This document shows, piece after piece, positions 5,740-62,580 of a DNA stretch of 64,000 nucleotides; position 1 is the first letter of the stretch, and each line of letters opens with the position of its first letter. The notes under the pieces were generated by a model. It had not been told where the DNA came from. It was given only the letters and a program-made list of their open reading frames with translations, and searched no databases. A program made the position numbers and the translations under genes. The stretch is taken from positions 183,249-247,248 of the forward strand of contig CALYLW010001013.1 of assembly GCA_944989445.1 (NCBI GenBank), in the 5' to 3' direction. The stretch is from Ampullaceana balthica. Taxonomy: Eukaryota > Mollusca > Gastropoda > Lymnaeidae.

Positions 5740-6545
5740 AAAATTTAAAAAGAAAAATGCAATATTTAAGTAACATCTTTTATGTTCTATTAAATCTACA
5801 AATAATAAAGTACTTAAATTGAAATGGTGTTAACATCATGCTGCACCACAATGTACCGTGAACATATTTAATGTGAGATTACTTGAGATAACTCATCTGC
5901 GAGAGAAACCCTTATTTGTGGTTTTATTCATATAAAAAAAAATAAAATTTACTGTAACAACCTAAATCAGGTAGTAAAATACAAAGGGACATTAACTAAT
6001 GTATTATATTTCAATGAGTCCTAAATCTAGGAAATAAAATGAAATTTAGAAGTGTAAAAATAGATTTTAATGTCTGTATTTTATTTTTATTAAAACAATG
6101 AAATTATTGCATTTTTATTACTTATATAATTGTCCAAATGCTAATAACACATGATTGCCTAACGGAGTTAGCACAAAATTTTATCTTATTCAAATGGCAT
6201 TCCCATTTGATTTCGATCCCTACAATTAGGGATACAATGTTAATGAATTGTTATTAATTTAGAAGCTTATAAATATGTTTTAATAATATTACTCAGAATG
6301 GCCTTCTAGCTAATACCAGCCAATGACATAGTTGTTATTAGAGATGGCAAACAACCAGCCTGCCAACATGGAAGAGAATACAACGCACCATCAAATAATG
6401 AAGTAGCATATTCATAGTTAATAAAGAATATACGTCACGTGATTATAGTTCTTCTTCAAAGAGATGGTAATGTTCATCTGGTCTCCAAAACTCATCGCTT
6501 TTATTATCGGTTGTAATGTCCAATATTATTCTGGTAAGGAAAAGA
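5740..6545 (+). repeat. Unit II copy 1 of the twin-hairpin repeat family
   Basis: Block A near 5836-5875 (CTGCACCACAATGTACCGTG). Block B begins at 6191 with stem CAAATGG pairing with CCATTTG, then a second hairpin ATCCCTA/TAGGGAT at 6216-6233. The downstream part 6320-6540 matches 29780-30000 closely, including AACATGGAAGAGAATACAAC. No open frame is conserved between copies, so conservation is at nucleotide level. Function unknown. Confidence 0.8.
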
Positions 6546-6838
6546 TGGATTTTAATTTTCAACATCAAATGAAAAACAAATGGGGAAAAAGTAGACCCAT
6601 AAAAAAGTCAGTGCCATGAATTATTATTCATAAACATTATCGATTCGTAAAAACCAAATCAATCACATTTGAAAATATCGTTCACTAATAAATAATATAT
6701 GTTTTCGAGATCAATGTCGAACGTGCGACCGCACAAATTCTCTTCATTTAATTACATCGAACCAAACTGAGGTCAGAAGAATTTATTCATTTACGTGACG
6801 CAGTTTCTACTGATGGGAATCTTAATCAATTTGGGAAA

Positions 6839-7785
6839 AGTGTCATACTGCCGGCTACAAGTGTCATACTGCCGGCTACAAGTGTCATACTGCCGGCTAC
6901 AAGTGTCATACTGCGGCTACAAGTGTCATACTGCCGGCTACAAGTGTCATACTGCCGGCTACAAGTGTCATACTGCCGGCTACAAGTGTCATACTGCCGG
7001 CTACAAGTGTCATACTGCCGCTACAAGTGTCATACTGCCGGCTACAAGTGTCATACTGCCGGCTACAAGTGTCATACTGCCGGCTACAAGTGTCATACTG
7101 CCGGCTACAAGTGTCATACTGCCGGCTACAAGTGTCATACTGCCGGCTACAAGTGTCATACTGCCGGCTACAAGTGTCATACTGCCGGCTACAAGTGTCA
7201 TACTGCCGGCTACAAGTGTCATACTGCCGGCTACAAGTGTCATACTGCCGGCTACAAGTGTCATACTGCCGTCTACAAGTGTCATACTGCCGGCTACAAG
7301 TGTCATACTGCCGTCTACAAGTGTCATACTGCCGGCTACAAGTGTCATACTGCCGCTACAAGTGTCATACTGCCGGCTACAAGTGTCATACTGCCGGCTA
7401 CAAGTGTCATACTGCCGGCTACAAGTGTCATACTGCCGTCTACAAGTGTCATACTGCCGTCTACAAGTGTCATACTGCCGTCTATAAGTGTCATACTGCC
7501 GTCTACAAGTGTCATACTGCCGTCTATAAGTGTCATACTGCCGGCTACAATTGTCATACTGCCGTCTACAAGTGTCATACTGCCGGCTACAAGTGTCATA
7601 CTGCCGTCTATAAGTGTCATACTGCCGTCTACAAGTGTCATACTGCCGGCTACAAGTGTCATACTGCCGTCTACAAGTGTCATACTGCCGGCTACAAGTG
7701 TCATACTGCCGTCTATAAGTGTCATACTGCCGTCTATAAGTGTCATACTGCTGGCTACAAGTGTCATACTGCCGTCTACATTTAC
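6839..7785. repeat. 21-bp minisatellite, about 45 copies
   Basis: Unit GTGTCATACTGCCGGCTACA plus A. A variant with GTC in place of GGC is confined to the second half of the array and alternates there with the main type. Because 21 is divisible by three, long repetitive frames exist on both strands; none is credible as a gene. Confidence 0.97.
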
Positions 7786-7799
7786 AGGAAGACCACTGC

Positions 7800-8015
7800 A
7801 CTTACCTAAATACACACAAGATAACAATGACTTAAATTCACAGAAAGTCACTTAAATGAAAACACACAAGTTACAATGGTTTAAACAGGAAAAACCAGTT
7901 GAAAGTCATCCGAATTTAGGTGATAATTATTCATTCAAGAAAAATAATGACCTAAAATGTATTATTATGATTATTTTTTTAAAATGTTCTTTTAACAATA
8001 CAAATTCTTTGTACG
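7800..8015 (+). repeat. Conserved linker after the minisatellite
   Basis: Contains two diverged copies of the 29-bp motif (ACACACAAGATAACAATGAC near 7811) that forms a large array at 30178-31062, followed by CCAGTTGAAAGTCATCCGAA near 7897, which recurs at 33332. This places 7.8-8.0 kb and 33.3 kb at equivalent positions of a larger repeat. Confidence 0.7.
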
Positions 8016-8151
8016 CAATGACGAATGTACGCTTTGAGATGATCTTTAAGCAAAGACAAATGTGCATTGTGTGTTGATCTTTAAGCAATGACGACTGTGC
8101 GCTCTAAGATCATCTTTATGCAATGATGAGTGCGCGCTATTAGTTGATCTT
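8016..8151. repeat. Degenerate repeats of about 38-43 bp
   Basis: Three to four diverged units of GCAATGACGAATGTGCGCT with GATGATCTTTAA. The series resumes at 9162-9260, so the element X tandem pair at 8152-9161 has interrupted it. Confidence 0.7.
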
Positions 8152-8651
8152 TAATAAGAAAAACCCGTAAAAAACCAAGTTTTTGACTATAAATCCTTTA
8201 TGTACGAGAAGTAATTAAAAGAATGTTCATTATAATACGCAGCGCCAGACCATCCAGAAAATACAAAATTGCAGTTGTGTCGTAAAACATGTTTAATATA
8301 ATGCGCACCGATCAGGAATATGTTTATAAAAAGAGCTGTCAATAAAATACGCACCTTATTGCGCGACAGAAAGGTTGTTCAATATAATACGCACCGCGAC
8401 GCTCTATCTCAAAAAATAGCATGATACATAGGAATAAATAAAATAATCTAAAAAATCAATAATTTAATTACGGTACATGCGATCGATCTGAAATTTTGAT
8501 ACATTGTTTTTATCATCGGTACGAAAACTGCCTGCAAAATTTCAGCTCGCTATCTTGCGAGCAAGTGGGTTAAAAATCGATCAAAAGTTTTGGCGACAAG
8601 CAAGCAAGCAAGGTCGGTCGGCCGCAGACACCACGAGTTAATATAAAGGAT
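8152..8651. mobile_element. Element X, copy 1 of a tandem pair
   Basis: About 500 bp that contains a short inverted pair, ATAAATCCTTTA (8189) and TAAAGGATTTA (8644-8654). It has a palindrome-rich interior with GATCGATCTGAAATTTTGAT and a right end with a short CAAG/GGTC tandem tract and GAGTTAATATAAAGG. No coding potential. Fragments of the right end occur at 3065 and 15960. Class unknown: a foldback or MITE-like element is possible. Confidence 0.75.
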
Positions 8652-9161
8652 TTAATAAGAAAAACCCGTAAAAAACCAAGTTTTTGACTATAAATCCTTT
8701 ATGTACGAGAAGTAACTAAAAGAATGTTCATTATAATACGCAGCGCCAGACCATCCAGAAATACAAAATTGCAGTTGTGTCGTAAAACATGTTTAATATA
8801 ATGCGCACCGATCAGGAATATGTTTATAAAAAGAGCTGTCAATAAAATACGCACCTTATTGCGCGACAGAAAGGTTGTTCAATATAATACGCACCGCGAC
8901 GCTCTATCTCAAAAAATAGCATGATACATAGGAATAAATAAAATAATCTAAAAAATCAATAATTTAATTACGGTACATGCGATCGATCTGAAATTTTGAT
9001 ACATTGTTTTTATCATCGGTACGAAACTGCCTGCAAAATTTCAGCTCGCTATCTTGCGAGCAAGTGGGTTAAAAATCGATCAAAAGTTTTGGCGACAACG
9101 TCGGTCGGTCGGTCGGTCGGTCGGCCGGCCGCAGACACCACGAGTTAATATAAAGGATTTA
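8652..9161. mobile_element. Element X, copy 2 of a tandem pair
   Basis: Nearly identical to the copy 501 bp upstream. The differences I see are an a/g-type substitution near 8717, two single-base deletions (near 8760 and 9025), and the simple repeat near the right end (GTCG units instead of CAAG units). The near identity indicates a recent tandem duplication. Confidence 0.8.
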
Positions 9162-9464
9162 AAAATGATGAATGTGCGCTTTGAGAGGATCTTTAAGTAA
9201 TTTCCATAGTGCGTTACAATTTGATCTTTTAGCAATGACGAATGTGAGCAGTGAGGTTCTATTGGGGGATCACTAAGTCAACAACTTAATTGTACAATTA
9301 TAATTATGTCATACAATCTTATTCGTATTTAATAAACTATCAACATATTTTGCTCAATGACGTCATTACAAGACAATTTTTTTTTATCAATGTCAAGAAT
9401 TGCGGTGATAGGGTTTATCTCTGTTATCAAATCTCTGTTTTATGTCAGAAATCAGTGGATAAGT
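9162..9464 (+). repeat. Conserved linker upstream of the TGTCTG tract
   Basis: Resumes the degenerate GATCTTTAA repeats, then carries ATTTTGCTCAATGACGTCAT and ACAAGACAATT, which recur at 33511-33545 and 57780-57815 in the same position before a TGTCTG tract. Short open frames here are not conserved between the copies. Confidence 0.65.
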
Positions 9465-10132
9465 TGGTGTTGGCTTTCAAGATTGTTTGTCTGTAAAAGT
9501 TGTCTGATTTTTATTGTTTACCGTCAGTTTGTAAGAATTGTCTGTTACATTTTCTTAGGTTAGTGTTGTCTTTTAGTTTGTAAGAGTATTTTTTTAAAAG
9601 TTTTCTGTCATATTGTAGGATATGTTTGATGCTTTGGTTTGTCTGTCTTTTAGAATTGTCTGATAGTTTGTTATTGTCTGTCACTTTGTAAATGTTTTTC
9701 TATTGTCAATGTTGTATGTCTATAAGATTTGTCTTATTGTTAAGGTTGTCTTTCAGTCAGAGATGTCTGATTATTTGTGTTTCCTAAATGTTAGATATGT
9801 ATTAGTGTTAGTATTGTATGTATGCAAAAGTTGTCTGTTTTTTAGTGTCTTTCATCTGCCTAAGTGTTGTAAGATTTATTTGATTAAAAGTGTTGTCTCT
9901 CAAGTGATTGAAAGTGGTGTCTCTCAGTTTGTTATAGTTTTCTGATTGTTAGTGTTGTATGTAAGCTTGATGTTGTTTGATTGAAAGTGGTGTCTCTCAG
10001 TTTGTTAGAGTTTTCTGATTTTTAGTGTTGTATGTAAGCTTGATGTTGTTTGATTGAAAGTTGTGTCTCTCAGTTTGTTAGAGTTTTCTGATTGTTAGTG
10101 TTGTATGTAAGCTTGATGTTGTTTGATTTTTT
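9465..10132. repeat. TGTCTG/TTAGTG-rich degenerate tract
   Basis: Irregular repeats of TGTCTG, TGTTAG and TTGTAAGA words. The last part has three copies of a 73-bp unit (AGCTTGATGTTGT at 9964, 10037 and 10110). Equivalent tracts precede Unit I at 27075, 33640, 57060 and 61755. Confidence 0.85.
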
Positions 10133-10780
10133 TTCAAGTAAATTCTATAATACATTGGACAAATAATTTTGGCATATTTAAATGCATATGAAACCATTTC
10201 CCCAAAATTGATCACACACACATTGAAAGGGACATTTACAAATTAAAAGAATTTTTTTTGTCATATCTGACGTGCAATCAAATTATATTTTCAATGAACA
10301 CCGCACTAAAAAGCACCGCTATCTACCTACTTTGTATAATATCATAATTCAGACATCTTAAGGGGCAAGATTAAACAAAAAGAGTGTAATATTATTTTCT
10401 TTTCCTTCGTTCTAATAAAACTTTAAATTCGATGTACACGTCTGTTGTACATAGTATTATTTATGTTTATTGTTTACACTTTGTACTGCATGTAGGTAAA
10501 TAGTATCAATATAAATATTTAATTCGAAGGAAAAATACATTTTTTTAATCCTAGTTATTTCAAAGTAAAAAGCTATACATTTTATAAATTTACCATCATG
10601 TATTGCTGTGGCTAATTGATGAAAACTGAACGTGCACCTTTGGCAGATACAAACATGTTTATTAAAGTGGCACGCTTCCTTTACTTCGATCTCTTTAGTA
10701 AGATATAACATTTCATTGAATCACTAGTATTTTCCAACCACCGATATCGATTGAACAAAATCATTTTTTGTGTCTGATTT
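10133..10780 (+). repeat. Unit I copy at 10.3 kb
   Basis: Block A at 10300-10320 (ACCGCACTAAAAAGCACCGC). Block B near 10663, where the first hairpin is weakened (TAAAGTGG and CTTCCTTTA). The second hairpin is also degenerate. A minus-strand frame at 10457-10711 crosses it, but the matching frame is interrupted in other copies, so it is not coding. Confidence 0.78.
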
Positions 10781-10880
10781 TTGAAATGTATATAAATAAT
10801 AAATCAAATTATGCACGTCTTACCTCTGATGATCACAGTTGCATTTGGAGTGCGGAGAGTAAATTTAAGGAGGTGGGGAC

Positions 10881-12339: not shown

Positions 12340-12850
12340 ATGTTTTATTTTCTCTTAAATCTACCAATTAATATAGTACATAATTTAAATTTGTTTTCAC
12401 ATTAGTGCTGCACCACAAAGCACTGTTACGAATATATTTAATGTGTCAGTGCACTTGAGAAAAATTGCTTTTGTGATAAATAGTGTTTGTTTTTTTAAAT
12501 CAATTTTAAAAAAAAAGAAAAGTGTATGAAACATTGTACTAATAAATTTGTGTTACATACATGTTTCAATGTGTGTAATTTATAATTTAAATAAATAAAA
12601 GTTAAATTTAGAAAAAAAAATAGTTTAAAATGCTAACAATTTAAAAAAATTTGAAAACTATGGATTAAAATAATGTTTGCTTATTAAATTTTAATTTCAA
12701 TTGCAATACACAGCATTACGGTATTACGACAATCACAGGATTTTAACATTCTCAAGTGGCATGCCCCTTGATTTCGAACACTAAAAACTAGGGATATAGT
12801 GTATAAGAACTGCTAGTCTTATTGTAAGCTCTATAATTATTAAATTATTC
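12340..12850 (+). repeat. Unit II copy 2
   Basis: Block A at 12404-12424 forms a small stem, AGTGCT pairing with AGCACT. Block B at 12753-12770 is CAAGTGGCATGCCCCTTG with one mismatch in the stem. The second hairpin is degenerate here. Preceded by AACATGTTTTATTTTCT, as in the 29.2 kb copy. Confidence 0.72.
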
Positions 12851-14869: not shown

Positions 14870-15420
14870 ATACATAAAATGGTAAATTTATGAATTAAAA
14901 GACTTTCTGTTGTCATATCTAGCGTGCAATTACATTGAATTTCCCCATTAACGCTGCACTAAAAAGCACCGCAATTAACATACAGTAATATGAGGTTGAA
15001 TAATTGAGACAATTTAAGTGGCAAGTTTAATGAGAAAATCCTATTATTTTCTTAACATCAGTTAAATTGCAATCTACAAGTCTATGCGACATAGTATTAT
15101 ATATATGTATTGCTTGCACTTTGTATTGCATTTAACTAAGTACGATTTATAGAAATATTTAAATTTGAAGAAAAAATACATTTTTAGAATCCAAGTGACA
15201 TCAAGTTTAGAAAACTGTTAATTTAATACTTTTACCGTCATGTATTTCTTTGCGAGATTGATGACCTCTGTGTGCATCTATATTAACATTCTTGATTATT
15301 TGTATCTAAGTGGCACGCTACTTGACTTCGATCTCTTTAATAAGGGATAACTTTTCAATGAATTGCCAACATGTCTTTACCACCAGATTAAATTAAGTTC
15401 ACAAATAACAATACTTTGTC
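14870..15420 (+). repeat. Unit I copy at 14.9 kb
   Basis: Block A at 14951-14972 (CGCTGCACTAAAAAGCACCG). Block B from 15306 has TAAGTGG, loop CACG, and CTACTT with a G-T pair, allowed as G-U in RNA. The second hairpin ATCTCTT/AAGGGAT follows. Spacing between blocks is about 354 bp. Confidence 0.8.
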
Positions 15421-15492
15421 ACTACTTAATTTTCTTTTATATCAATCTCTCTCTCTCTATATATATATATAGATCTAGATATATATATATAT
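15421..15492. repeat. CT then TA microsatellite
   Basis: TCTCTCTC followed by TATATATA and a short palindrome AGATCTAGATAT, directly before the hAT terminus at 15493. Confidence 0.85.
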
Positions 15493-21794: not shown

Positions 21795-22084
21795 GTGAGA
21801 GAGAGAAATAGAGAGCGAGAGAGTTAGAGAGAGAGAGAGAGTGAAAGAGAGAGAGAAGGGGTGAAAGAGAGAGATAGAAGGAAAGAGAGAGAGAGTTAGA
21901 GAGAGAGAGTGTGAAAGAGAGAGATAGAAGGAAAGAGAGAAAGAGAGAGTTAGAGAGAGAGAGAGAGTGAAAGAGAGAAAGAGAGAGAGGGGGTGAAAGA
22001 GAGAGAGAGAGAAAGAAAGAGAAAGAGAGTGAAAAAAGAGATAGAGAGTGAATAAGAGAGAGAGAGAGAGAGTAAAAAGGGAGA

Positions 22085-25557: not shown

Positions 25558-25559
25558 AT

Positions 25560-27415: not shown

Positions 27416-27740
27416 TTTGCCAGAAAATTCTATAATACATTAGACAATATTCGTTCAGCAATTTTTAAATGAATTTGAAACAATTTCCCAAAGTATGAAC
27501 TAACATATATATAAAAGGGAAAGTTTACAAATCAAAAGACTTTCTATTGTTAAATTCGACGTGCAATTAAATTGTATATATCATGAACGTCAGACTAAAC
27601 AGCACAGCTATCGACAAACGAAATATCCTGTTGTAATTCAGACATATTAAGTGGCATGATTTAAATAAAAGAGTACAATATTATTTTATTTGACTTAAGT
27701 TAAATTTCAATCTACACGTTTTTATGACATACTTAAAACG
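27416..27740 (+). repeat. Unit I copy at 27.6 kb, truncated
   Basis: Shares AATTCTATAATACATTAGAC and a decayed block A (GTCAGACTAAACAGCACAGC near 27589). Block B with its hairpins is not found, so this copy is 3'-truncated. Confidence 0.65.
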
Positions 27741-28175: not shown

Positions 28176-28488
28176 ACCCTTTACATCAACAGCACACATT
28201 AACCAACTTAAAATGTTAGTATATCAAGGCCTAATGTTCATCTGAATTACTTATAACGTAAATCAGTGACGTAGCAGTATGTATTTTACCCGTGTCGTTA
28301 GACAATGGTGTAGCCCTTACCTCCCTTTGCCCGATTCAAACGATTAATTTCTTCTACTAAAATGAAGTCCACAGTAGAAATGACAGAATATATAAATGTA
28401 TAAATAAAAGCTTTAGAACACATGGCATTTACAACGCCTCATATAATATTAACTTACTTTATATAATGTTGTTTATGATATGTAAATT
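28176..28488 (+). repeat. SINE-associated spacer block
   Basis: Homologous to 5090-5430: AACGTAAATCAGTGACGTAG near 28255, GTGTAGCCCTTACC near 28310, ATTTACAACGCCTC near 28430. One copy here of the segment that is tripled at 5088-5240. Confidence 0.7.
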
Positions 28489-28560
28489 AGGGGGCAAGGT
28501 GGTCGAGCGGCATGCGTGCTCAGCTGGCGTACAGAGAGTCATAGGAACAAAGTTTAGAGA
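28489..28560 (+). repeat. tRNA-derived SINE head, second copy
   Basis: AGGGGGCAAGGTGGTCGAGC with GGCATGCGTGCTCAGCTGG, matching the heads at 5431-5598. The B-box region is decayed (CATAGGAACAAAG). Confidence 0.65.
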
Positions 28561-28570
28561 AGTCAGTTAA

Positions 28571-28935
28571 TACAACGGCATAGAAAGCAATAATCCTCTA
28601 TAATACAAGAGCGTAGAAAGCAATAATCCTGTGTAATACAAGAGTGTGGATAGCAATAATTTTGTGTAATACAAGAGTGTGGATAGCAATAATCCTGTGT
28701 AATACAAGAGTGTGGATAGCAATAATCCTGTGTAATACAAGAGTGTGTATAGCAATAATCCTGTGTAATACAAGAGTGTGGATAGCAATAATCCTGTGTA
28801 ATACAAGAGTGTGGAAAGCAATAATCCTGTGTAATACAAGAGTTTGGATAGCAATAATCCTGTGTAATACAAGAGTGTGGATAGCAATAATCCTGTGTAA
28901 TACAAGAGTGTGGATAGCAATAATCCTCTGTAAAG
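28571..28935. repeat. 33-bp minisatellite, about 11 copies
   Basis: Unit GTGGATAGCAATAATCCTGT plus GTAATACAAGAGT. Open in four frames because 33 is a multiple of three. A minus-strand frame enters it from unique sequence at 29042 (see findings). Confidence 0.95.
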
Positions 28936-29214
28936 AACGGTCGTCTGTAATGTCCACGGGTCGCTCCTTCACGTTCTACTTTGACCTCCCCTGTGTTCGT
29001 AAACCCTGCCTTGAACATTGGAATTGGTTGTTGATATTCCATTCAGTAAATACAGAAAACCTCCATCTTGTGAAGTAGTTTGATTTACTTCCGTGTAGGT
29101 TTCTGGCATTGTTTGGAAAATTACCACTCATAAGTTTCTTTGAATTACCTGTCTTCCGAATAAAATTTAGTATATTTTAAAGAAACGAAAGAAGAAATAT
29201 ATACAATTTAAGAA
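28936..29214. other. Unique spacer
   Basis: Mixed-composition sequence between the 33-bp array and Unit II. About 120 bp (28930-29042) is open on the minus strand. Not recognised. Confidence 0.4.
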
Positions 29215-30000
29215 ACATGTTTTATTTTCTACTAAAAATAAAGTACTTAAGTTTAATTTTTATTCACATCAGTGCTGCACCATAAAGCACCGGTAAGGAC
29301 GTATTTAATGTGCCGATATACTTGAGAAAACTTAAATACTGCGATAAATAACAAGATTAGATCTATTATATATTTATATATTAAATCACTTTTAAAAGTA
29401 AATTAAAATGATATACAACTTTGGACTAATAATTGTATTACTTAAAATTTTCAGTGCGTGTAACATAAATTTCGTTAATGAAGTGAACTTTTTAAGATTA
29501 AATAACAATTTTAATGTCTTTATTTTATAATTATTAAAACAATGACACTATTTCATTTTTTTATATAGTTTCTCTAATTGTTTGAAGGAGCTACATTGTG
29601 TTTGTTTAATTTGAATAAGACAAAATTTTATCATATTCAATTGGCATACCACTTGATTTCGCTTCCTACAATAAGGAATACAAAGGTAATTAATTGCTAT
29701 TAGTATATTAGCTTCATATGAGCTTTATAAATATGTTTTAATAATACTAGTCAGAATTGCCTTCGAGCGAAAAACAGCTAATGAATACGTTGTTATAATT
29801 AGAATTGGCAAACAACCAGCCTGCTAACATGGAAGAGAATACAACGCACTATCAAAAAATGATGTAGTATATTCATAGTTAATGAAGAATATACATCACG
29901 TGATATAGTTCTACTTGGCAGAGATGGTAATGTTCATCTGGTCTCCAAAACTCGTCGCTTTTATAATCGGTTGTAATGTCCAATATTATTCTGGCAATCA
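29215..30000 (+). repeat. Unit II copy 3
   Basis: Block A at 29271-29292 (AGTGCTGCACCATAAAGCAC) has stem GTGCT/AGCAC. Block B at 29638-29655 has CAATTGG and CCACTTG with one mismatch, followed by TTCCT/AGGAA, which pairs again although its sequence differs from the other copies. The following 200 bp match 6320-6540. Confidence 0.8.
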
Positions 30001-30177
30001 ATCACATTTTAATTGTTGTTAATTGTTTCATCAATATGGTGTCGATATAAATGATAAAATTGCGACTGAACGACTTTTCTTAATTTTATAGCATTTAACC
30101 AAACTAAGGTCAGAATAATATATTCAGTTTGGTGACGTAGTTTCAACTGACGTGAATCCGATAAATTGGGGAAAATT

Positions 30178-31062
30178 GCCAATACACACAAGATACAATG
30201 ACTTACATGAATACACACACGATACAATGACTTACATGAATACACACAAGATACAATGACTTACATGAATACACACAAGATACAATGACTTACATGAATA
30301 CACACAAGATACAATGACTTACATGAATACACACAAGATACAATGACTTACATGAATACACACAAGATACAATGACTTACATGAATACACACAAGATACA
30401 ATGACTTACATGAATACACACAAGATACAATGACTTACATGAATACACACAAGATACAATGACTTACATGAAATACACACAAGATACAATGACTTACATA
30501 AATACACACAAGATACAATGACTTACATGAATACACACAAGATACAATGACTTACATGAATACACACAAGATACAATGACTTACATGAATACACACAAGA
30601 TACAATGACTTACATGAATACACACAAGATACAATGACTTACATGAATACACACAAGATACAATGACTTACATGAATACACACAAGATACAATGACTTAC
30701 ATAAATACACACAAGATACAATGACTTACATAAATACACACAAGATACAATGACTTACATAAATACACACAAGATACAATGACTTACATAAATACACACA
30801 AGATACAATGACTTACATGAATACACACAAGATACAATGACTTACATGAATACACACAAGATACAATGACTTACATGAATACACACAAGATACAATGACT
30901 TACATGAATACACACAAGATACAATGACTTACATGAATACACACAAGATACAATGACTTACATGAATACACACAAGATACAATGACTTACATGAATACAC
31001 ACAAGATACAATGACTTACATGAATACACACAAGATACAATGACTTACATGAATACACACAA
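30178..31062. repeat. 29-bp minisatellite, about 30 copies
   Basis: Unit ACACACAAGATACAATGACT plus TACATGAAT, with a TACATAAAT variant clustered near 30690-30800. Two diverged copies at 7811-7880 show what the unexpanded sequence looked like. Confidence 0.97.
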
Positions 31063-31895
31063 AATACAATTGTATTATGATCACCATGACAATTGTATTA
31101 TGATCCACATGTCAATTGTATTATGATCACCATGACAATTGTATTATGATCACCATGACAATTGTAAAATGATCACATGACAATTGTATTATGATCACCA
31201 TGACAATTATATTATGATCACATGGCAATTGTATTATGATCACATGACAATTGTATTATGATCACCATGACAATTGTATTATGATCACCATGACAATTGT
31301 ATAATGATCACATGACAATTGTATTATGATCATCATGACAATTGTATTATGATCCACATGTCAATTGTATTATGATCACCATGACAATTGTATTATGATC
31401 ACAATGACAATTGTAAAATGATCACATGACAATTGTATTATGATCACCATGACAATTATATTATGATCACATGGCAATTGTATTATGATCACATGACAAT
31501 TGTATTATGATCATCATGACAATTGTATTATGATCACCATGACAATTGTATAATGATCACATGACAATTGTATTATGATCACCATGACAATTATATTATG
31601 ATCACATGGCAATTGTATTATGATCACATAACAATTGTATTATGATCATCTTGACAATTGTATTATGATTACCATGACAATTGTATTATGATCACCATAA
31701 CAATTTAATTTTGTTCACCATGACAATTGTATTATGATCATCATGACAATTGTTTTATTATCACCATGACAATTGTATTATGATCACCATGACAATTTTA
31801 TTATGATCACCATGACAAATGCATTATGATCACCATGACAATTGTATTATGATCACCATGACAATTGTATTATGATCACAAATGACATTGTATTA
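31063..31895. repeat. 23-bp minisatellite, about 36 copies
   Basis: Unit ACAATTGTATTATGATCACC plus ATG, with 21-22 bp variants lacking one or two bases of CACC. A block of variants around 31090-31330 recurs about 250 bp downstream, indicating block duplication. It abuts the 29-bp array with no spacer. Confidence 0.96.
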
Positions 31896-32346
31896 TGATT
31901 GTCAGGACATCATAGCACGTGTGTTCAAATAAGAAATATCAATGTGTGATTGATTTCATTGTGTGATGTAATTATTTTGTTGAGTCACGCTGTAGGGTGT
32001 ATGCCATTCAATTGAAAAAAAGAAGATTACCGCATGCACACATTATCATTTAGTTTAATGATAATATTACACAATAATAATTGATGAAGTCAGTTCAGCA
32101 GAAATATCAAGACACTGACATTGATCCAGACTTATTAGAAATTTTTACAAAAACATGATATCAGGTATATGTGGAGATATAAACTGGATTTCTTCTAGCA
32201 TGAAGGATGGACAATGAACTAAACGCTGTACAAGAGACTTACACGCTGAAAACAGCACTGAAAATTGTGTATATCTTTATTATCATCGTCGATCAACTGA
32301 AGATGGTGGCGAATTCATTCTCTAAAAGATGCGTAACAATTAAACT
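31896..32346. other. Unique spacer between arrays
   Basis: No recognised element. A 108-residue frame from 32207 runs into the following array and is not supported. Confidence 0.45.
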
Positions 32347-32905
32347 GAAGTCTATAATCATTGTTTTGTGTTGTATTCAACATTACTGTCAAAGACGTCA
32401 CAATGACACTGGAGTCTATAATCATTGTTTTGTGTTGTATTCAACATTACTGTCAAAGAGTAAATATGACACTGAAGTCTATAATCACTGTTTTGTGTTG
32501 TATTCAACATTACTGTCAAAGACGTCACAATGACACTGGAGTCTATAATCATTGTTTTGTGTTGTATTCAACATTACTGTCAAAGACGTCACAATGACAC
32601 TGAAGTCTATAATCATTGTTTTGTGTTGTATTCAACATTACTGTCAAAGACGTCACAATGACACATGAAGTCTATAATCATTGTTTTGTGTTGTATTCAA
32701 CATTACTGTCAAAGACGTCACAATGACACTGACGTCTATAATCATTGTTTTGTGTTGTATTCAACATTACTGTCAAAGACGTCACAATGACACTGAGTCT
32801 ATAATCATTGTTTTGTGTTGTATTCAACATTACTGTCAAAGACGTCACAATGACACTGAAGTCTATAATCATTGTTTTGTGTTGTATTCAACATTACTGT
32901 CAAAG
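32347..32905. repeat. 64-bp minisatellite, about 9 copies
   Basis: Unit contains GTCTATAATCATTGTTTTGT and CAAAGACGTCACAATGACAC. One copy has a GAGTAAATATGACAC variant at 32457. Small indels shift the frame between copies. Confidence 0.95.
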
Positions 32906-33300
32906 ATGTTCTAGACGCATATTAATGTCAAGTATTGCAATTCAGTTAAATCCATTATATACATTTGCAAATATTTCAACAAAGGTAGTGATGTGGATTG
33001 TTTTTGAGTAAGGAATGCATCTGTCCAAAACGATGACATCGAATGATATTACAGGGAACAGTACATTGGTAGCTATGAAGTTGTTTGGATAATTTCCAAT
33101 TCATTAACGTAATCAAACATTTGTTCATTTTACTGTGAAACTGGAATTTGGACTTCGCGTATATTTTACAACGGGAAATGTACAAACGATATCATTTTAA
33201 ACACTTCAAACAACGTTAACTGCGTTTCTTTTCATTGTGCATGTATGATTTGTTCGCAAGAAAGTTATTTTACCAAAATACTGCAGATGGAACGAACAGC
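32906..33300. other. Unique spacer
   Basis: No recognised repeat or coding signal. Confidence 0.45.
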
Positions 33301-33639
33301 CAAAACGTTTCAAAGTTGTAAAATGGGCAAACCAGTTGAAGGTCATCCGAATTTAGATGATACTTAAATTTTAGAAAAAATGATTACCTGCATACATTTT
33401 TAAAGATATATTAAGTTGATATTGTAAATTTATTTTGTGTACAAATATACTTAGATATATACCTGTCATAAAATTCTATTAGTCTTTAATAAAATATCAA
33501 CATCTTTTTTTCTCATTGAGGTCATCACAAGACAATTATTTTTGATCAATATAAAAGTCTAGGTGATAAAGGTTATTTATATATGTTATCAATAATTTGG
33601 TTTCATGTCAGAAACCAAAGGATAAGTTTGTGTATTCTG
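33301..33639 (+). repeat. Conserved linker upstream of the TGTCTG tract, copy 2
   Basis: CCAGTTGAAGGTCATCCGAA at 33332 and ATTGAGGTCATCACAAGAC near 33517 match 7897 and 9357 in the same order. The element X pair and the degenerate repeats of copy 1 are missing here. Confidence 0.7.
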
Positions 33640-34135
33640 ACCAGATTGTTTGTCTGTAAGAGGTGTCTGATGTTATTATTGTCTGTAAGTTTGTAATAGT
33701 TATTTGTCGGTTTCTGTAGTCTGTTAGTGTTGTCTGTATGTTACATTTTCTTATAACAGTTTTGTCTGTTAGTTTGTAAGAGTTATCTGATTGTTAATGT
33801 TGCCTGTCAGATTGTAAGATATAACTGATTGTTAGGGCTGTCTGGCTGTCTGTCTGATGAATTGTGTTGTCTGTCACTTTGTAATTGTTGTCCTATTTTC
33901 ACTGTTGTCTTTCTATAAGATTGGTCTCATTGTTCAGTTTGTCTTTATGTCAGAGGTGTTTGATTGTTTGTGTTTCCTAAAGCTGTCTGTTTGTTAGTGT
34001 TGTGTGTCTACCTGAAAGACTTGTTTGATTTTAAGTGTTATCTCTCAGTTTGTAAGATGTGTATAATTGTTAGTGTTGTCTGTGTGTAAGAGTTTTCTGA
34101 TTCTATTGTTGTCTGTCAATTTGTTATTGTTGTTT
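33640..34135. repeat. TGTCTG-rich degenerate tract
   Basis: Irregular repeats of TGTCTG, TTGTTAGTG and GTTTGTAAGA, ending at TTGTTGTTTTGGCAG directly before Unit I. Confidence 0.85.
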
Positions 34136-34197
34136 TGGCAGTAAATTTCTATAATACATTTGAAAAACCCTTTTAGCATATTTAAATGGAAATAAAA

Positions 34198-34643
34198 TAG
34201 GGCTGCGGAAATTAACGATTAATTTCTCGATTAATTTGTTAAAAATAAATTTTAAAAATATTTTTTTTTCAAGATTAATCGACCCACCACTTATTAATGT
34301 ACTGGAAGTCAAAAAGTAAAATATATCGGCCGATAAATATCAAACTAATTTCCGTACGATTACACGAACATTTTGGTTTTAAAATATTGACTGACGTGCA
34401 TGTTCAAAATGTTGATTAAGGTTATTGTGTCCATTGAGAGAAATCGTTTGCCTATCATGCAATGTTCCCTCAAAGTCTAAGCTTCGTTAGTCCGTGTACA
34501 AAGTCAAACAAAAAACGTTTAATAAATGTTACTTATGACACAATAAATTTCAATTTTTGGCTTTAATCGAAATTAACGAGTAATTAATCGTTTTTATTTT
34601 CAAAAGTTTTCGATTAAATTTAAATTAATCGTTAAAAGCCCTA
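34198..34643. mobile_element. hAT MITE of the TAGGGCTG family, 446 bp
   Basis: Ends TAGGGCTGCGGAAATTAACG and, inverted, TAGGGCTTTTAACGATTAAT. Target duplication aaataaaa at 34190-34197 and aattaaaa at 34644-34651 (7/8). The uninterrupted form of the target is seen at about 58367-58390, which confirms the insertion. Confidence 0.88.
34451..34515. mobile_element. Fragment of the CAATGTTCCC hAT MITE
   Basis: CAATGTTCCCTCAAAGTC followed by CTTCGTTAGTCCGTGTACAA matches one end of the MITEs at 10942 and 45384, here nested in the 34198-34643 element. Only about 65 bp remain. Confidence 0.65.
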
Positions 34644-35255
34644 AATTAAAATCGTTGACTAAAGTTTGAACTCTTACATAAAAGGGAAAATTTATAGATA
34701 GATATACTATCTATTGTCTTAACTGACGTGCAATTAAATTGTATTTTCAATGAACGCCGCGCTAAAAAGCACCACTATCGACATATTTATTATGAGATTA
34801 CAATTGAGACAACTTAATTAAGCGGTAAGATTGATGAGAAAATCATATTATCGGGTCTTAACTTCGGTTAAATTGCAATCTACAAGTCTATGCTGACATA
34901 GAATTAATTATTTCTATTGCTTACAGTTTGTATTGCATGTAATTAAGTATATTTTATAGAAATAGTTAATTCGAAGGAAAAATAAATATTGAATTCAAAT
35001 TGTTAGAATCCTAGTTACTTCAAATTTAGAAAACTATAAATTTAATACTTTTATCGTCATATATTCCTTTCGTAATTGATGAAAATTGTGTAGTAAATAT
35101 CGATAGTTTGAATTACATTTATCTAAGTGGCATTCCACTTGACTTCGATCTCTTCAATAAGGGATACCATTTCAATGAACTTCTAGGATTCTCCTACCAC
35201 CAGAAAAGACTGAGTTCGATTTAAACAATATCCTCTCACTAGCTAATTTTTGTTA

Positions 35256-36971
35256 TCTATATATATATATAGAAATCAAAGTATGCTTGTGTGTGTGTGT
35301 GTGCATGTCCTTTATAGCAGACTAAACGATTCATCCGATCGTCATGAAATTTTTGGAGACTGTTTAGTTCCTACCTGGGATGGTTACTTGCAACTTTGTT
35401 TTCTAAATTTAACACTCATGGGGCGCCGGGTTCCATAATGTCATTTTTTGCCAATATGAGCTATATAAAAATTAGTTTAAGCGCTAGCTACTGTGTAAAT
35501 TGTTGGATCTTAGCCAAACTTTGTATATGACAACTTGATAGCCAATATTAAAATACTACAGGGAACTGAACTGCAAATAGTCATTATTTTGGGGCTGGGG
35601 GCCCAAAAATTCACATTTCTTAAACGTTTAAGATTGTATTCACCATTCAGTCATTAACAATCTTGACAAATAATGACACATGTATCCATTATTATACAAA
35701 TTGAAATGAACAGGGGTTTTGAACTTTATATCTTGCACTGAATGGGCCCGGGGCCCTTAATGTCTTTTTTTGGTAATGTATGATATATAAAAATTAGTTT
35801 ATGCGTTAGCTACTGAGTAAATGAATGGATCTAAACCAAAAATTGAATACAAAAACTTGGTAGCCCATATTGAAATACTATAGGGCACATAACTGCAAAT
35901 ACCCATTCTTTCGGGGCCGGGGTACCCCAATGTCTTTTCTTCGTGTATGTTTAATGTATTTTCAACCATTCAGTTTTTCACGATCTTGAGGAATATATCT
36001 ATGAGGAAAGTTAATTACATTAAATGGTTTTTGAAATTTACATCTATCACCAAATGGGCCCAAGGGCCCTAAATGTCTTTTTTTCTTATATCTTCTATCT
36101 ATATATATAAAATCAAAGTATGTCTCTGTGTGTGTGTGTGTGTGTGTGTGTGCATGTCCTTTATAGCTGACTAAACCATTCATCCGATCGTCATGAAATT
36201 TTTGGAGACTGTAAAGTACCTACCTGGGATGGTAAATGGCAACTTTGTTTTCTAAATTTAACACTCATGGGGCGCCGGGTTCCATAATGTCATTTTTTGC
36301 CTATATGAGCTATATAAAAATTAGTTTTAGCGCTAGCTACTGTGTAAATGGTTGAATCTTAACCAAACTTTATATATGACAACTTGCTAGCCAATATCAA
36401 AATACTATAAGGGACTGAACTTCAAATAATCATTCCTTTTGGGCTGGGGGCCCAAAAATTCACATTTCTTAAACGTTTAAGATTGTATTCACCATTCAGT
36501 CGTTAACGATCTTAACAAGTAATGACACATGTATCCGTTATTATACAAATTGAAATGAACATGGGTTTTGAACTTTATATCTTGCACTGAATGGGCCCCG
36601 GGGCCCTTAATGTCTTTTTTTAGTTACATATGATATATGAAAATTAGTTTATGCGTTAGCTACTGAGTAAATGAATGGATCTAAACCAAAAATTGAATAC
36701 AAAAACATGGTTGCCCATATTGAAATACTATAAGGCACATAACTTCAAAAGTTTATTATTTCGAGGCTGGGGGCCCCCCATGTCTTTTCTTCGTGTATGT
36801 TTAATGTATTTTCCCCCATTCAATTTTTTCACGATCTAGAGGAAAATATATATGAGGAAACTTAATTAAATCAAAAGTTTTTTGAAAGTTACATCTAACA
36901 CCAAATGGGCCCATGGGCCCTAAATGTCTTTTTTCTTATATCTTCTATCTACATATATAAAATTCAAAGTA

Positions 36972-47059: not shown

Positions 47060-47570
47060 TAAGTTTTTAATGCCGCACTAAAAAGCACCGGTATTGACCT
47101 ATGTAATATGATGTTGTAATTAAGACAAATTAAGCGGCATGATTAGTGAGAACATCATATTATATTTTTCTTAAACTTCAGTTAAATTGTTATCTCCAAT
47201 CATATGTGACGTAGTATTACTTATTTGTATTACTTATTTGTATTGCTTACACTTTGTATTGCACTTCACTTAATATTATGTAAAGAAACATTTAATTCGA
47301 AAAAATTAATTTGTTTTTATCCTAGTTATTTCAAATCCACGAAACTATAAATTTAATACACTTGCTGTAAAGTTTTGCTTTGCCTAAATGATATTAATCA
47401 GTTGTAACTTTACTGATTTTGTGTCCGACAAATTCTGTTTATCCAAGTGGCATGCCACTTGACTTCGATCTCTTTAATAAGGGATAACATCTCAATGAAT
47501 CGTTAGGAATCTCCTACCACCATTATAGTCTGGGTTCGAATATAACAATGTCTTGTCACTTGTTCATTTA
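47060..47570 (+). repeat. Unit I copy at 47.1 kb
   Basis: Block A at 47072-47091 (GCCGCACTAAAAAGCACCGG). Block B: perfect hairpin CAAGTGGCATGCCACTTG at 47444-47461, second hairpin ATCTCTT/AAGGGAT at 47468-47485, third hairpin TAGGA/TCCTA near 47503. Preceded directly by the 42-bp array instead of a TGTCTG tract. Confidence 0.85.
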
Positions 47571-47579
47571 TTCAATTTA

Positions 47580-50067: not shown

Positions 50068-50084
50068 TAGTCATATTATGTTTT

Positions 50085-50503: not shown

Positions 50504-50511
50504 TAAAGTTA

Positions 50512-51045
50512 TGTGACGTGCAATCAATGTGTATTTTTCATGAACGCGGCACTAAAAAGCACCGCTATCGACCTATTGCATATGAGGTTGTATTTAAGAC
50601 AATTTAAGTGACATGTTTTGTGAGAACATCATATTATTATTTTCTTTAACTTCAGTTAAATTTCTATCTTCAATTATGTGTGACATAGTATTACTTATTT
50701 TTACTGCTTTCACTTTGTACTGCAATTCAGTTAATATATGTAAAGAAACATTTAAGGTTGAAGGAAAAATATATGTTTTTAATCCTAGTTATTTCAAAAT
50801 AAGAAAACTATAAATGTAATACATTTACCGTCACGTAGGGCTTTGCCTAATTGATAATAACCGATAGGTAAACATCAAAGAAAGTGTCCACACATTTTTT
50901 TTTATCCAAGTGGCACGCCACTTGACTTCGATCTCTTTAATAAGGGATAACATTTCAATGAATTTTTAGCATTCTCCTACCACCAGTGTAGACTGAATTC
51001 TTTGATAACAATGTCTTGTCACTTGTTTATTTGTTTGAATTTGTA
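50512..51045 (+). repeat. Unit I copy at 50.5 kb
   Basis: Block A at 50545-50565 (GCGGCACTAAAAAGCACCGC). Block B: perfect hairpin CAAGTGGCACGCCACTTG at 50907-50924 and second hairpin ATCTCTT/AAGGGAT. The third hairpin has one mismatch. No TGTCTG tract upstream; a Helitron fragment ends immediately before. Confidence 0.85.
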
Positions 51046-58304: not shown

Positions 58305-58965
58305 TTTTGCCAGTTAAATCTATAATAAATTACAAAACAACACTTTTAGCATATTTAAATGGAAATACAATCATTGATTGATCCAAGTTTGAAATGACAT
58401 ATGTATAAAAGGAACAATTTACAAACTAAAAATCCTTCTATTTCATATATGACGCGCAATTAAGTTGTATTGTCCATGAACGCCGCACTAAAAAGCACCG
58501 CTATCGACATACATAAAGTGGGATGGTAATTGAGACAACTTAATCAGCAAGATTTATGAGTAGTTCATAATATTACTTTATTTAACTTCGGTGAAATTGC
58601 AATCTACAAGTCTATGTGACATTGTATTACTTATTTGTAATGTTTACACTTTGTATTACATCTAAATAAATGTCATGTATAGAAATATTGAATTTCTATA
58701 CAAATTATATTTTCATAATGCTAGTTATTTTTAACTAAGAAAACTAAATATTTAATACATTTAATGTCACGTATTACCATACGTAATTCATGATATTTTG
58801 ATTTTGACATGCACTAAATTGGAACATTTATTTATCCATGTGGCATGCCACTTGACTTCGAAGTCTTTCATAATGGATAAACTTTCAATGAATTGCTAGG
58901 ATTCTCCTACCACCAGTGTAGACTGAGTTCGATTTAAACAATTTCTATCACTATTCATCTTGTTC
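58305..58965 (+). repeat. Unit I copy at 58.5 kb
   Basis: Block A at 58481-58501 (GCCGCACTAAAAAGCACCGC). Block B at 58837-58854: CATGTGG, CATG, CCACTTG with one mismatch. The second hairpin is weakened (AGTCTTTCATAATGGAT). The third hairpin TAGGA/TCCTA near 58898 is intact. Confidence 0.85.
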
Positions 58966-59400
58966 GCTATAAAAATATATAATATATACCTATATATATG
59001 AAAACTATGCATGTCTGGTATGCATACCTTTTATGGCCTAGTTATTGCTTAGGGTGTAGCCCTACCTCTTTGTCCCATTCAAATAATTATTATTATTTTT
59101 TTAAAATTGTTATAATTTGTTTTTTCTTTTGGTTGTAAATCTAACTCTACAGTATAAAAGGCAATTCTATAAATGAAGAAATTGAAGGCCTTTATTGCCA
59201 ACATGGCTGACCCTCGCTAGGGTTGGCAATCACAGTTTATGGTTGGCAAGCTAATGTGGTAAAGGATGGTGGGCAGGTAGATAACCACAGTGCGAATGTC
59301 TCGAAACCAGCAATGAGTCGGCAGTCAACAGACGTTCACTCGCGTTGTTTTGATTTCTTCGTGCTGTTGTTTGTGTCCGTTCTTTCTCCACTTTCTTTTC
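58966..59400. other. Spacer with decayed SINE-spacer similarity
   Basis: Near 59050-59080 the words GGTGTAGCCCTACCTC and CCCATTCAAATAATT resemble 28310 and 5255. Otherwise unrecognised. Confidence 0.4.
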
Positions 59401-60410: not shown

Positions 60411-60619
60411 TTAATTAACGCCGATTGGATATTATCTAATTTCACTTTGTTTCAGCCAACCGTGCTAGTACATTTTTGCCCCCCCCCCTTAGGAATAGGA
60501 TCGAGAATTTTTCCTCCGATATAAAAAGGGGGAAGATTGGGATTTTGTCATGTTTTATTATCTTCCTTGATTTTTATGTTAAGGTTCACAGAACAGACAA
60601 TTTAACACGAGGCTTTAGA

Positions 60620-60748
60620 GTCTCATAATTGTTGTCACATGTGATAGGGGTCATCTCTGTCTGTTATTAATTGTCACAGGTGATAGAGGTTATCTCTGTC
60701 TGTTATAAACTGTCGTCACAGGTGATATGGGTTATCTCTGTTTGTTAT
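60620..60748. repeat. Degenerate repeats with GGTGATATGGGTTATCTCTG
   Basis: Three diverged units of about 50 bp (GTCACA, GGTGATA, GGTTATCTCTG, TGTTAT). Further units lie at 61613-61690, so the LINE fragment inserted into the array. Confidence 0.8.
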
Positions 60749-61612
60749 CACTATTAAATAAATAAATAAATAAATTGATTATTTATATAGCGCTGTATCC
60801 CAGTAAGGAACTGGGCTCACAGCGCTTTACATGAAAGAAATAACATACCTATAAATATTAATTTAACTTTCATATCATAACAAACACAAAAATTACAGTA
60901 CATTATACATAAGCAACGTTAATCATTTACAAGAAATGTTGTTTCATTAATTTTGAAAATAAATGTTGAAAAGATGTGTCTTTAATGCAGTCTTGAAGGA
61001 CTTGGTTGTTTGAATACTACGTATGTGTAATGGTAGATAATTCCATTGTTTGGCTGCACAAAAAGAGAACGACCTTTCACCAAATGTTTTGGTGCGTGTC
61101 GAAGGAACAGAGAGAACGCGTGTGTCTGCAGAAGATCGTAGCTGGCGAGTGGGTGAGTAGACCGACAAAAGTTCAGTAAGATACGATGGGCATGAGTCCG
61201 AAAAGAAGTTGTGACAGAGAACGGCCAGTTTGTAATCAATACGGGCTTGTATAGGCAGCCAATGAAGTGAGTGAAGAAGTGGAGTAACATGGTCATGTTT
61301 TTTTGCCTTGAGCACCAGTCTGGCAGCTGAAGTTTTGAACTTTCTGTAGTTTTTCAATGCATTGTTTTGGCGCACCTGACAGAAGAGAATTGCAGTAATC
61401 CATACGAGCTAGTACAAGAGCACAGACTAGAGTTTTTGTTGCACTAACTGTTAAGTAATGACGTATTGAGCTGATCTGACGAATGGCAGTGTAGGCAGAG
61501 CGACAGATGTGATTGATAAAGTTGTTAATAGACATGTTGTCAGAAATAATGTAGCCAAGATTCTTTGTCGATGTTGTGAACAGAATATACGAACTGGCTA
61601 CCTGAGTTGACT
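60749..61612 (-). pseudogene. LINE ORF2 C-terminal part with 3' UTR and TTTA tail (CR1/L2-like)
   Basis: Minus-strand translation shows YCNSLLSGAP, then (after a frameshift near 61340-61370) LHSLHWLPIQARIDYKL, CPSYLTELL, SFSFCAAKQWNYLPLHIR and a stop near 60947. This is the standard post-polymerase region of CR1/L2/Rex-type LINEs. The 3' UTR has GCGCTGTGAGCCC-type and AGCGCTATATAA words, then a TTTA repeat tail at 60750-60772. It is 5'-truncated, as is usual for LINEs, and non-functional. Confidence 0.87.
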
Positions 61613-61754
61613 TCGTCACAGGTGATATGGGTTATTTCTGTTTGTTATCAATTGTCGTCACAGGTGATATGGGTTATCTCTGTTTGTTATCACTATATAT
61701 ATCACTTTTATATGCCATATATTTCTTACTTTTGTATACCATAAATAATAGAGA
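61613..61754. repeat. GGTGATATGGGTTAT repeats, right part
   Basis: Two more units of the array interrupted by the LINE, then a short ATATAT stretch. Confidence 0.75.
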
Positions 61755-61950
61755 TGTTAGAATTGTCAGGTTGTAAAATGTGTCTGTTTGTTAGTATTGC
61801 CTGTCTGTTTCTAAGAGTTGTTTGATTGTAGGTGTTGTCTCTCATTTTTATTTAGGCATGTAAGTTTCATTGATGTTTTATAATGTGAAAGTTTTGCTAA
61901 ATAGATATTGTTGTTTTGTAATTTGATAGTGTTGTTAGATATTTATTGTT
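61755..61950. repeat. TGTCTG-rich degenerate tract, short
   Basis: TGTCTGTTTGTTAG, CTGTCTG and TTGTTTAGCCAG words preceding Unit I, as in the other linkers. Confidence 0.65.
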
Positions 61951-62580
61951 GTTTAGCCAGTAAACTCAATAAAACAAATTATTAAAAAATTCAGTTCAGC
62001 ATATATGAAATCATTGACACCATTTTGAAGATATAAGGGACAATTTACAAATTAAAATATGATGTATTGTAATATCTTAAGTGCAATGAATCTGTACTTT
62101 CCATGCACGCCGCACTAAAAAGCACCGCTATAAACTTAGTTAATACGAGATTGTAATTGAGACAACTTAAGCGGCAGTACTAATGAGAAGAAAGTGATAT
62201 TATCTTCTTTAACTTCGTTTTAATTGCAATCTATAAGTCCTTACGACACAGTATTACTTATTTGTATTGTCTAAACTTTGCATTGCAGGTACATACATAT
62301 CATGCACAGAATTTGGTTTATTTGAAGGAAAAATAATTTTTTAGAAACCTTGTTTCCTAAAATTAAGACAACTATAAATATAATGCATTTACTTTCATGT
62401 ATCACTTAGCCTCATAGATGTACATCCGCCCATTGACGCCATCAGTTACTCTTTTGTTTATCTAAGTGGCATGCCACTTGTCTTCGATCCCTTTATAAGG
62501 GATAACGTTTCAATGAATTCCTAGCTTTCTTCTACCACCGGTATAGACGGAGTTCGATTTAAACAATTTCTTGTGGTTAT
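61951..62580 (+). repeat. Unit I copy at 62.1 kb
   Basis: Block A at 62109-62128 (GCCGCACTAAAAAGCACCGC). Block B: AAGTGG (62464-62469), CATG, CCACTT (62474-62479); second hairpin ATCCCTT/AAGGGAT at 62487-62503 is perfectly paired, where most Unit I copies have a T-G pair. Confidence 0.85.

Follow-up and report, generated by a model that had tools for sequence, protein, structure and literature searches.

What is the unit that recurs eleven times on one strand of this 64,000-nucleotide stretch of Ampullaceana balthica DNA (the window), a short conserved block (block A) followed in ten cases by two adjacent hairpins (block B)? We favor, with a probability of about 0.4 and judging from the sequence, a large family of noncoding-RNA genes in which a fast-diversifying, guide-like address would lie beside a constant hairpin handle. 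The initial annotation had listed block A at eleven places, and these were borne out: a 20-mer search allowing up to three mismatches recovered 7 of the 11 sites (none in shuffles), and a profile search all 11, as ten full copies and one 5′ half (27554-27731). As presented in Table 1, all of them lie on the + strand. There was no separate minus-strand copy in the window (best minus-strand profile score E=0.035), and the single minus-strand match of the hairpin model (47386-47468, E=0.001) overlapped the palindrome of a plus copy. The distance from A to B, described earlier as nearly fixed, was 348-374 in the ten full copies, but its spread was not below the random-indel expectation (P=0.20).

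Table 1. Coordinates of the repeat units and related features in the window (Unit I and Unit II are sequence forms I and II; A and B, blocks A and B).
Feature	Coordinates	Strand	Remarks
Unit II copy	5794..6278	+	A ~5836-5855; B hairpins ~6191-6235; presumed variable segment 6149-6176, placed by analogy, without comparison to a close relative
Unit I copy	10263..10782	+	A 10300-10319; segment 10622-10649 (by analogy); B from 10664; hairpin 1 degenerate
Unit II copy	12360..12837	+	A ~12405-12424; presumed variable segment 12711-12738; B from 12753
Unit I copy	14915..15435	+	A 14953-14972; variable segment 15265-15292 (by analogy); B from 15307
Unit I copy, 5′ half	27554..27731	+	block A decayed (5/20); without block B
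Unit II copy	29227..29724	+	A ~29272-29291; presumed variable segment 29596-29623; B from 29638
Unit I copy	34719..35253	+	A 34756-34775; variable segment 35082-35109 (by analogy); B from 35124
Unit I copy	47067..47572	+	A 47072-47091; variable segment 47402-47429; B from 47444
Unit I copy	50510..51036	+	A 50546-50565; variable segment 50865-50892; B from 50907
Unit I copy	58445..58964	+	A 58482-58501; variable segment 58795-58822; B from 58837
Unit I copy	62072..62590	+	A 62109-62128; variable segment 62421-62448; B from 62463
Hypervariable segment	58795..58822	+	near relatives L031, L036; versus L036, 16/28 differ, rest of unit 63/534
Hypervariable segment	62421..62448	+	versus near relative L037, 14/28 differ, rest of unit 40/534
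Block B, two adjacent RNA hairpins	58837..58884	+	TTCG linker between them, invariant in the ten window copies
Composite II+I block	5202..10814	+	collinear with 28255-35286; segmental duplication
Composite II+I block, second copy	28255..35286	+	collinear with 5202-10814

The common orientation had been taken as a sign that the copies were not independent insertions. This holds for the window, where the single-strand arrangement is due to segmental duplication, the composite block of one form II and one form I copy being present twice. Beyond the window, by contrast, two copies, both diverged, occupy the minus strand ~18 and 26 kb after the window ends (L044, 8295-7855; L045, 6615-6107), and among the 100 places listed genome-wide, 9 of the 25 neighbour pairs within 50 kb were on opposite strands; the common orientation is confined to the window. 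Overall, what the initial annotation had observed was partly confirmed. The block duplication, a third sequence form and the hypervariable segment were absent from it, and it had treated as unremarkable the spacer before block B, where the most unusual feature sits.

In the 1.1-billion-base genome, an exact search with the hairpin block gave 1173 matches (640 forward and 533 reverse; reversed control, 0). In 56 of 60 copies, block A precedes the start of block B by 316-383 nt in the same orientation (reverse-complement control, 0).

Within the unit, we observed a hypervariable segment of ~28 nt, at -44 to -17 relative to hairpin 1. In 36 close pairs drawn from 21 copies, its 4-nt bins showed a mismatch of 0.32-0.54, whereas the mean elsewhere was 0.068. 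Six pairs were 94-99.6% identical over the remaining unit, and in five of these 21-57% of the segment positions differed. The excess was absent in one pair (2/28, P=0.19) and in the very recent pair L032/L033. For 12 pairs sharing no copy, a set that leaves out L032/L033 (segment identical) and the identical tandem copies of L036/L037, 136/336 segment positions differed versus 664/6408 in the remaining unit. The segment also outpaced its surroundings: in seven pairs, 68/196 segment positions had diverged, versus 173/3738 in the remaining unit and 1150/21328 in the flanks (segment versus flanks, P=1.3e-35), the flank value, from BLAST local alignments, being somewhat too low and the pairs not all independent on the tree. 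These are seven of ten pairs, the others being L034/L047 (without left homology), L032/L033 and 47446/50909 (without flank homology). Outside the segment, the unit had diverged only a little less than the flanks (P=0.028; three of the seven pairs gave values below 0.02).

In the closest pair the segment changes are in-place substitutions that preserve length, and transitions (4/7 and 8/14) reveal no special spectrum, as would suit a mutational hotspot at which the hairpin-bearing unit provokes error-prone repair or conversion and the segment varies without any guide function. We consider this improbable, because ~12-16 more constant nucleotides set the segment apart from the hairpins, with limits that are sharp in single pairs (e.g., L041/L042), and because its GC content (0.41 in form I, 0.38 in form III) is unlike that of the adjoining stretches, for which the respective values are 0.21 and 0.20 (positions -120 to -70) and, over the 16 nt following the segment, 0.25 and 0.23. 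The raised GC is not confined to the segment, reaching 0.36 at -70 to -55 in form I and 0.39-0.43 in the hairpins. With 25 of the 27 form I copies anchored, the left limit of the segment had no T bias. For form III, 20 of 24 copies were anchored, and one position, 30 nt before the hairpin, is T in 0.75 of them. The segment was no less structured than shuffles, giving no sign of selection for an unpaired state, and no pairing partner was found inside the unit. The one address searched genome-wide, through an 18-mer of L017, occurs once, at its own place, and so revealed no target; within the 328 kb compared there was no segment match longer than 15 nt, recent duplicates aside.

The dispersal over so many places and on both strands, in at least three sequence forms, is also what a non-autonomous, retroposon-like mobile-element family would produce, in which block A would act as promoter, the structure of block B would be recognized for copying and the segment would change at or between jumps; segmental duplication would then have further multiplied the window copies. 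The limits of the unit speak on both sides. The left limits of the shared stretches vary and some stretches end just past block B (relative to the start of hairpin 1, L021 spans -382 to +45, L024 -402 to +91 and L026 -379 to +60), and the mutual homology of the seven window form I copies ends at about one place, ~80-100 nt past hairpin 2, as a common right end would. However, near relatives share DNA beyond the unit limits, and while three form III copies end at +45 to +91, several others run on past +400. An inverted repeat common to five units was absent among those listed (at most the five longest for each stretch), in contrast to the subterminal inverted repeat of oyster non-autonomous Helentrons (HINE). 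Unlike the 3′-terminal palindrome of Helentrons and HINE, the hairpins lie ~80-100 nt inside the shared stretch of form I, and farther inside that of the form III copies running past +400. A SINE family would have common ends with a tail and target-site duplications; here the left limits vary, some copies stop at +45 to +91 and the form I copies of the window stop at about one place.

Two further results stand against mobility. Block A, the 20-nt block that alone gave P<0.05 among four stretches compared, carries 6 changes in 140 positions in the intact form I copies versus 5 in 20 in the copy without block B (P=0.005), its constraint thus being lost with block B. Furthermore, L039 and L040 are tandem duplicates 14.5 kb apart with matching flanks, and their segments differ at 7/28 positions, compared to 2/534 in the rest of the unit and 133/3946 in the flanks; no jump was therefore needed for the segment to change. 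We regard a mobile-element family as the main rival, possible but doubtful.

We then return to the handle of the putative RNA genes. Both hairpins are present in the consensus of the ten window copies. Double changes occurred in 4 of 14 pairs versus 0.9 in shuffles, with P=0.005 against a tree-aware null, the structure tested having been derived from the same ten copies, which favors that structure; 12 of 140 cells were unpaired, all in the copies at 10659 (2), 12745 (3), 29631 (3) and 58830 (4). The covariation of the stems, proposed earlier, is thus modest in the window and becomes clearer over 57 distinct copies (of 60 located by a tolerant pattern, which favors intact ones). Among these, stem 2 has 358/399 standard pairs, with A-T in 20 copies swapped for T-A in 27 or the reverse, and G-U outnumbers A-C by 25 to 7, although the distribution of the swap, and of 20 G-U cells, largely reflects the forms, so that few events are counted many times. 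In stem 1 the ratio is 6 to 0, counted on 29 copies, L011-L030 and L048-L050 having been left out as chosen by their stem-1 pattern. Against shuffles, which here and for the window pairs ignore relatedness, the A-C deficit in stem 2 was not significant over the 57 copies (7 versus 8.8, P=0.11). In the ten window copies no A-C cell occurred (P=0.009) and the excess of G-U over A-C was not significant (P=0.37). Because the wobble pairs favor G-U over A-C, the conserved structure looks like RNA of the + strand. The conserved nucleic-acid structure proposed earlier is supported, and the earlier interpretation as a whole partly so. Elsewhere in the unit no convincing conserved structure was found, z-scores being unusable where the shuffled energy is near zero.

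Block B, which in several copies is an almost perfect palindrome at the DNA level, could instead be a protein-binding site with CANNTG half-sites, forming with block A a DNA-level regulatory element arrayed by duplication. CANNTG is kept on both sides in the copies at 6186, 29631 and 58830 despite a broken or altered stem 1, but it is missing from one or both sides in those at 10659, 12745 and 15301. In many copies, T-G pairs make stem 2 an imperfect palindrome, which RNA of the + strand tolerates, and a spacer between DNA sites should not outpace its flanks. We find this explanation very unlikely.

Several other identities were considered. Protein coding, also in the form of tandem exons, was rejected, with 7-20 stops in each of the six frames of the ten copies, in agreement with the absence of a shared reading frame noted earlier; a splice-site reading of the AG before hairpin 1 was dropped, the AG being missing in some copies. 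Pfam gave no match above the curated cut-off for the 20 stretches tested of 101 listed. Rfam covariance models, applied to the window and three loci, gave nothing at the gathering score, and the family still goes unrecognized; at a lax limit only SNORA12 appeared (E=4.6), on the opposite strand of 58200-59100. In viral and prokaryote collections, a 17-mer of block A had two matches, both in unrelated DNA, and block B had none. Strand skew, a sign of long transcription, was not significant with all arrays masked, a looser mask having hinted at one. The unit sequence was not found as text in published papers, nor was a description of such a family in the literature searched.

On the noncoding-RNA reading, each unit would be a gene of ~450 bp that does not code for protein, extending from block A to shortly beyond block B and transcribed from the given (+) strand. 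The double hairpin would be its constant part, probably a handle bound by a protein, and the ~28-nt stretch ending ~16 nt before the hairpins would serve as a guide-like address toward targets. Copies would multiply by segmental duplication and dispersal, after which A and the hairpins would stay constant and the address change, kept different between copies by diversifying selection or targeted mutation.

The closest parallel may be the nematode type I piRNA (21U-RNA) genes, described in PMC6317315 and PMC9683057 as thousands of small, clustered noncoding genes with a constant architecture and extremely divergent 21-nt guides. As in the genes so described, a constant frame at many noncoding loci accompanies a divergent stretch of guide length. 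Their constant part is given as an upstream 8-nt motif, CTGTTTCA, whereas here a downstream double hairpin is conserved; in the window that motif occurred 5 times (expectation, 4.0), never closer than 850 bp to a unit. The divergence of the nematode guides is read in PMC9683057 as weak selection, not diversifying selection. Drosophila roX RNAs and other lncRNAs with repeated modules carry repeated short motifs in stem-loops within otherwise poorly conserved RNA (PMC4719309). For roX, that account concerns two genes and describes no hypervariable address, whereas the present units are separate and dispersed. Among other RNAs, kinetoplast minicircle guide RNA genes and U7-type snRNAs combine a constant frame with a guide stretch, which in U7 precedes the 3′ hairpin; neither is known to be a nuclear family with a hypervariable guide. 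No Sm consensus lies between the segment and the hairpins in the window units, and the one match inside a unit (10776-10784) is located after its hairpins.

More specifically, the family could comprise more than 1000 nuclear guide-RNA genes that carry individual ~28-nt addresses, renewed either through strong diversifying selection or by a dedicated mutator, and so represent an undescribed RNA-guided system outside the nematode piRNA genes; we hold this to be distinctly doubtful. The segment has the length of a guide, a fixed place in a constant structured frame, more than 1000 family members and about six times the divergence of its flanks, a combination for which we know of few precedents. 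Even if the family were a mobile element, the accelerated internal segment would still need explaining. If the segment encodes guides, the origin of new guide genes, the diversification of their repertoire and the targets they recognize would become testable.

With a profile of the whole unit (the ~450-bp noncoding repeat running from block A to just past the two adjacent hairpins of block B), we recovered ten full copies and one 5' half copy, all on the + strand, for the 11 places at which the initial annotation had listed block A; its 20-mer, with up to 3 mismatches, matched 7 of these 11 places and nothing in shuffles. A tree of the ten full copies separated seven of form I from three of form II. 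The A-to-B distance was 348-374 bp (345-371 bp in the initial annotation), and no open frame was observed, with 7-20 stops in every one of the six frames of each of the ten copies. On the minus strand of the window, the top score of the whole-unit profile (E=0.035) spanned 19 nt of the palindrome itself, and the single match to the hairpin model (E=0.001) overlapped a plus copy. The statement that all copies lie on one strand held inside the window but not beyond its end, where two diverged minus-strand copies, L044 and L045, were found ~18 and 26 kb away.

The form II surroundings at 5202-6845 are homologous to 28255-30181, i.e. beyond the unit limits, and the form I region 9299-10814, with an old minisatellite (34-38 bp unit) upstream, matches 33464-35286 and 57732-58981 piecewise. 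Since the II+I block is collinear between 5202-10814 and 28255-35286 and 3982-4239 matches 63264-63570, the repeat array probably extends past the window. Duplication, rather than orientation-specific insertion, most simply accounts for all copies being on one strand. However, the mutual similarity of the seven form I copies of the window ends at roughly one common point, 80-100 nt past hairpin 2, and this shared right limit argues against that reading and for a mobile element. Two Unit II copies share ~200 bp downstream, possibly a further conserved block, and a tRNA-like repeat unit in their surroundings, with a putative resemblance to a Pol III A box.

In the genome assembly (1,097,344,711 bases), in which the window occupies G000:C1013:183249-247248, a 500-base query gave 1245 candidates, 40 of them scored, and 40 genome stretches were taken for comparison. 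The exact block B pattern matched 640 times forward and 533 times in reverse (control: 0), a dispersal that also favors a mobile-element family, a serious rival to the RNA gene family considered below. Among 100 places listed, 25 neighbor pairs lay within 50 kb, 16 of them on the same strand. A third form (III) shares the hairpins of the other forms but differs from them in block A, and it accounted for 19 of the 23 loci chosen by the exact pattern. Block A preceded the B-block start by 316-383 nt on the same strand in 56 of 60 copies (reverse-complement control: 0). Compared to permuted columns, form I was conserved in block A (P=0.0005 and 0.001 in 15- and 20-column windows) and in the hairpin block (P<=0.002 in 30- and 60-column windows). 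Block A was changed at 5/20 positions in the half copy without block B vs 6/140 in intact copies (P=0.005, one half copy only), and the upstream stretch of this half copy was no more decayed than in intact copies.

Concerning the stems, 128 of the 140 cells in the window copies were standard pairs, with double changes at 4 of 14 pairs, ten G-U and no A-C cells, and all 12 unpaired cells confined to four copies. Under a null that distributed equally many changes over the tree, standard pairs (P=0.004), double changes (P=0.005) and A-C absence (P=0.009) were significant, but G-U minus A-C was not (P=0.37). Stem 2, part of no selection pattern for the genome copies, showed 358/399 standard pairs, 25 G-U and 7 A-C cells (8.8 in shuffles, P=0.11), and 24 double-change cells vs 11.7 in shuffles, none of 2000 being as high; stem 1 showed 161/174 standard pairs, six G-U and no A-C in 29 unselected copies. 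Much of this pairing signal tracks the forms, and the underlying events are therefore fewer than the cells counted. The paired changes announced for the two stems were partly confirmed. On balance, the sequences favor a structure in RNA of the + strand.

Near-identical copies differed in one place, a hypervariable segment ("address") of ~28 nt lying 17-44 nt upstream of hairpin 1, where mismatch per 4-nt bin was 0.32-0.54, against a mean of 0.068 elsewhere (36 close pairs, 21 copies). In 12 pairs sharing no copy, 136/336 segment positions differed vs 664/6408, with an excess at P<0.03 in 11 pairs; the remaining one had 2/28 (P not below 0.03). Taking flanking DNA as divergence yardstick in seven pairs, we counted differences at 68/196 segment positions, 173/3738 positions elsewhere in the unit and 1150/21328 flanking positions, which puts the segment ~6-fold above the flanks. 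L041 and L042 differ at 14/28 segment positions and are alike on both sides. In a 14.5-kb tandem duplication (G000:C54), the units L039+3831 and L040+8448, 14.5 kb apart, are the cleanest case (7/28 in the segment, 2/534 in the rest); the other unit pair showed no excess in the segment. The units of L036/L037 (G000:C1438) are identical, with a period of 5.57 kb. In window copies other than those in the table, the segment was positioned by analogy.

Features of the window
Feature	Position	Strand	Remark
Hypervariable segment	58795-58822	+	vs near relatives
Hypervariable segment	62421-62448	+	vs near relatives
Hypervariable segments	47402-47429, 50865-50892	+	vs each other, more weakly
Half copy	27554-27731	+	5' half of Unit I copy
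Downstream of Unit II	6352-6551, ~29813-29995		90-94% identity; surrounding 50-bp bins 42-84%
tRNA-like unit	5424-5589, 28486-28557
Minisatellites (among others)	53035-56687, 19576-21664, 21797-26912
~0.84-kb tandem repeat	35254-38540	+
Inverted copies of ~0.84-kb repeat	42200-43488, 50073-50512	-
Retrotransposon-like fragment	60950-61631	-	153-aa frame, 170 relatives in protein collection
0.5-kb tandem duplication	8150-8658, 8651-9165		96% identity

The window is without dense genes and very rich in diverse minisatellites (65 TRF rows, one with a 38-bp unit repeated 96 times), among which lies a 5-kb purine-rich tract. The ~0.84-kb repeat, perhaps a transposon, adjoins unit ends in TA-rich sequence; the retrotransposon-like frame presumably resembles animal LINEs. 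Taken together, this frame, the sparse genes and the many minisatellites suggest an animal genome.

Segment GC was 0.41 (form I) and 0.38 (form III), vs 0.20-0.25 in most adjoining stretches; form I, however, reached 0.36 between 70 and 55 nt upstream of hairpin 1. The segment had no pairing partner within the unit and no tendency to be unpaired. Apart from recent duplicates, nothing longer than 15 nt matched the segments in 328 kb of DNA, and 18 nt of the L017 address, the single address searched in the whole genome, matched only their own place. In form III, one position of the otherwise variable segment, 30 nt before hairpin 1, carries T at a frequency of 0.75 (20 anchored copies); it may mark a start or processing site, or reflect chance, given that 34 positions were considered.

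The defining motif of nematode 21U-RNA genes is absent near the window's units, so that these are not members of that group. The likeness is one of logic: these genes have a constant architecture and divergent guides (PMC9683057, PMC6317315), to which the putative address is analogous. The divergence of the segment may be driven by selection or by targeted mutation. Overall, the reading judged most likely is a noncoding RNA gene family, in which the constant double hairpin would serve as a handle and the variable segment as an address.
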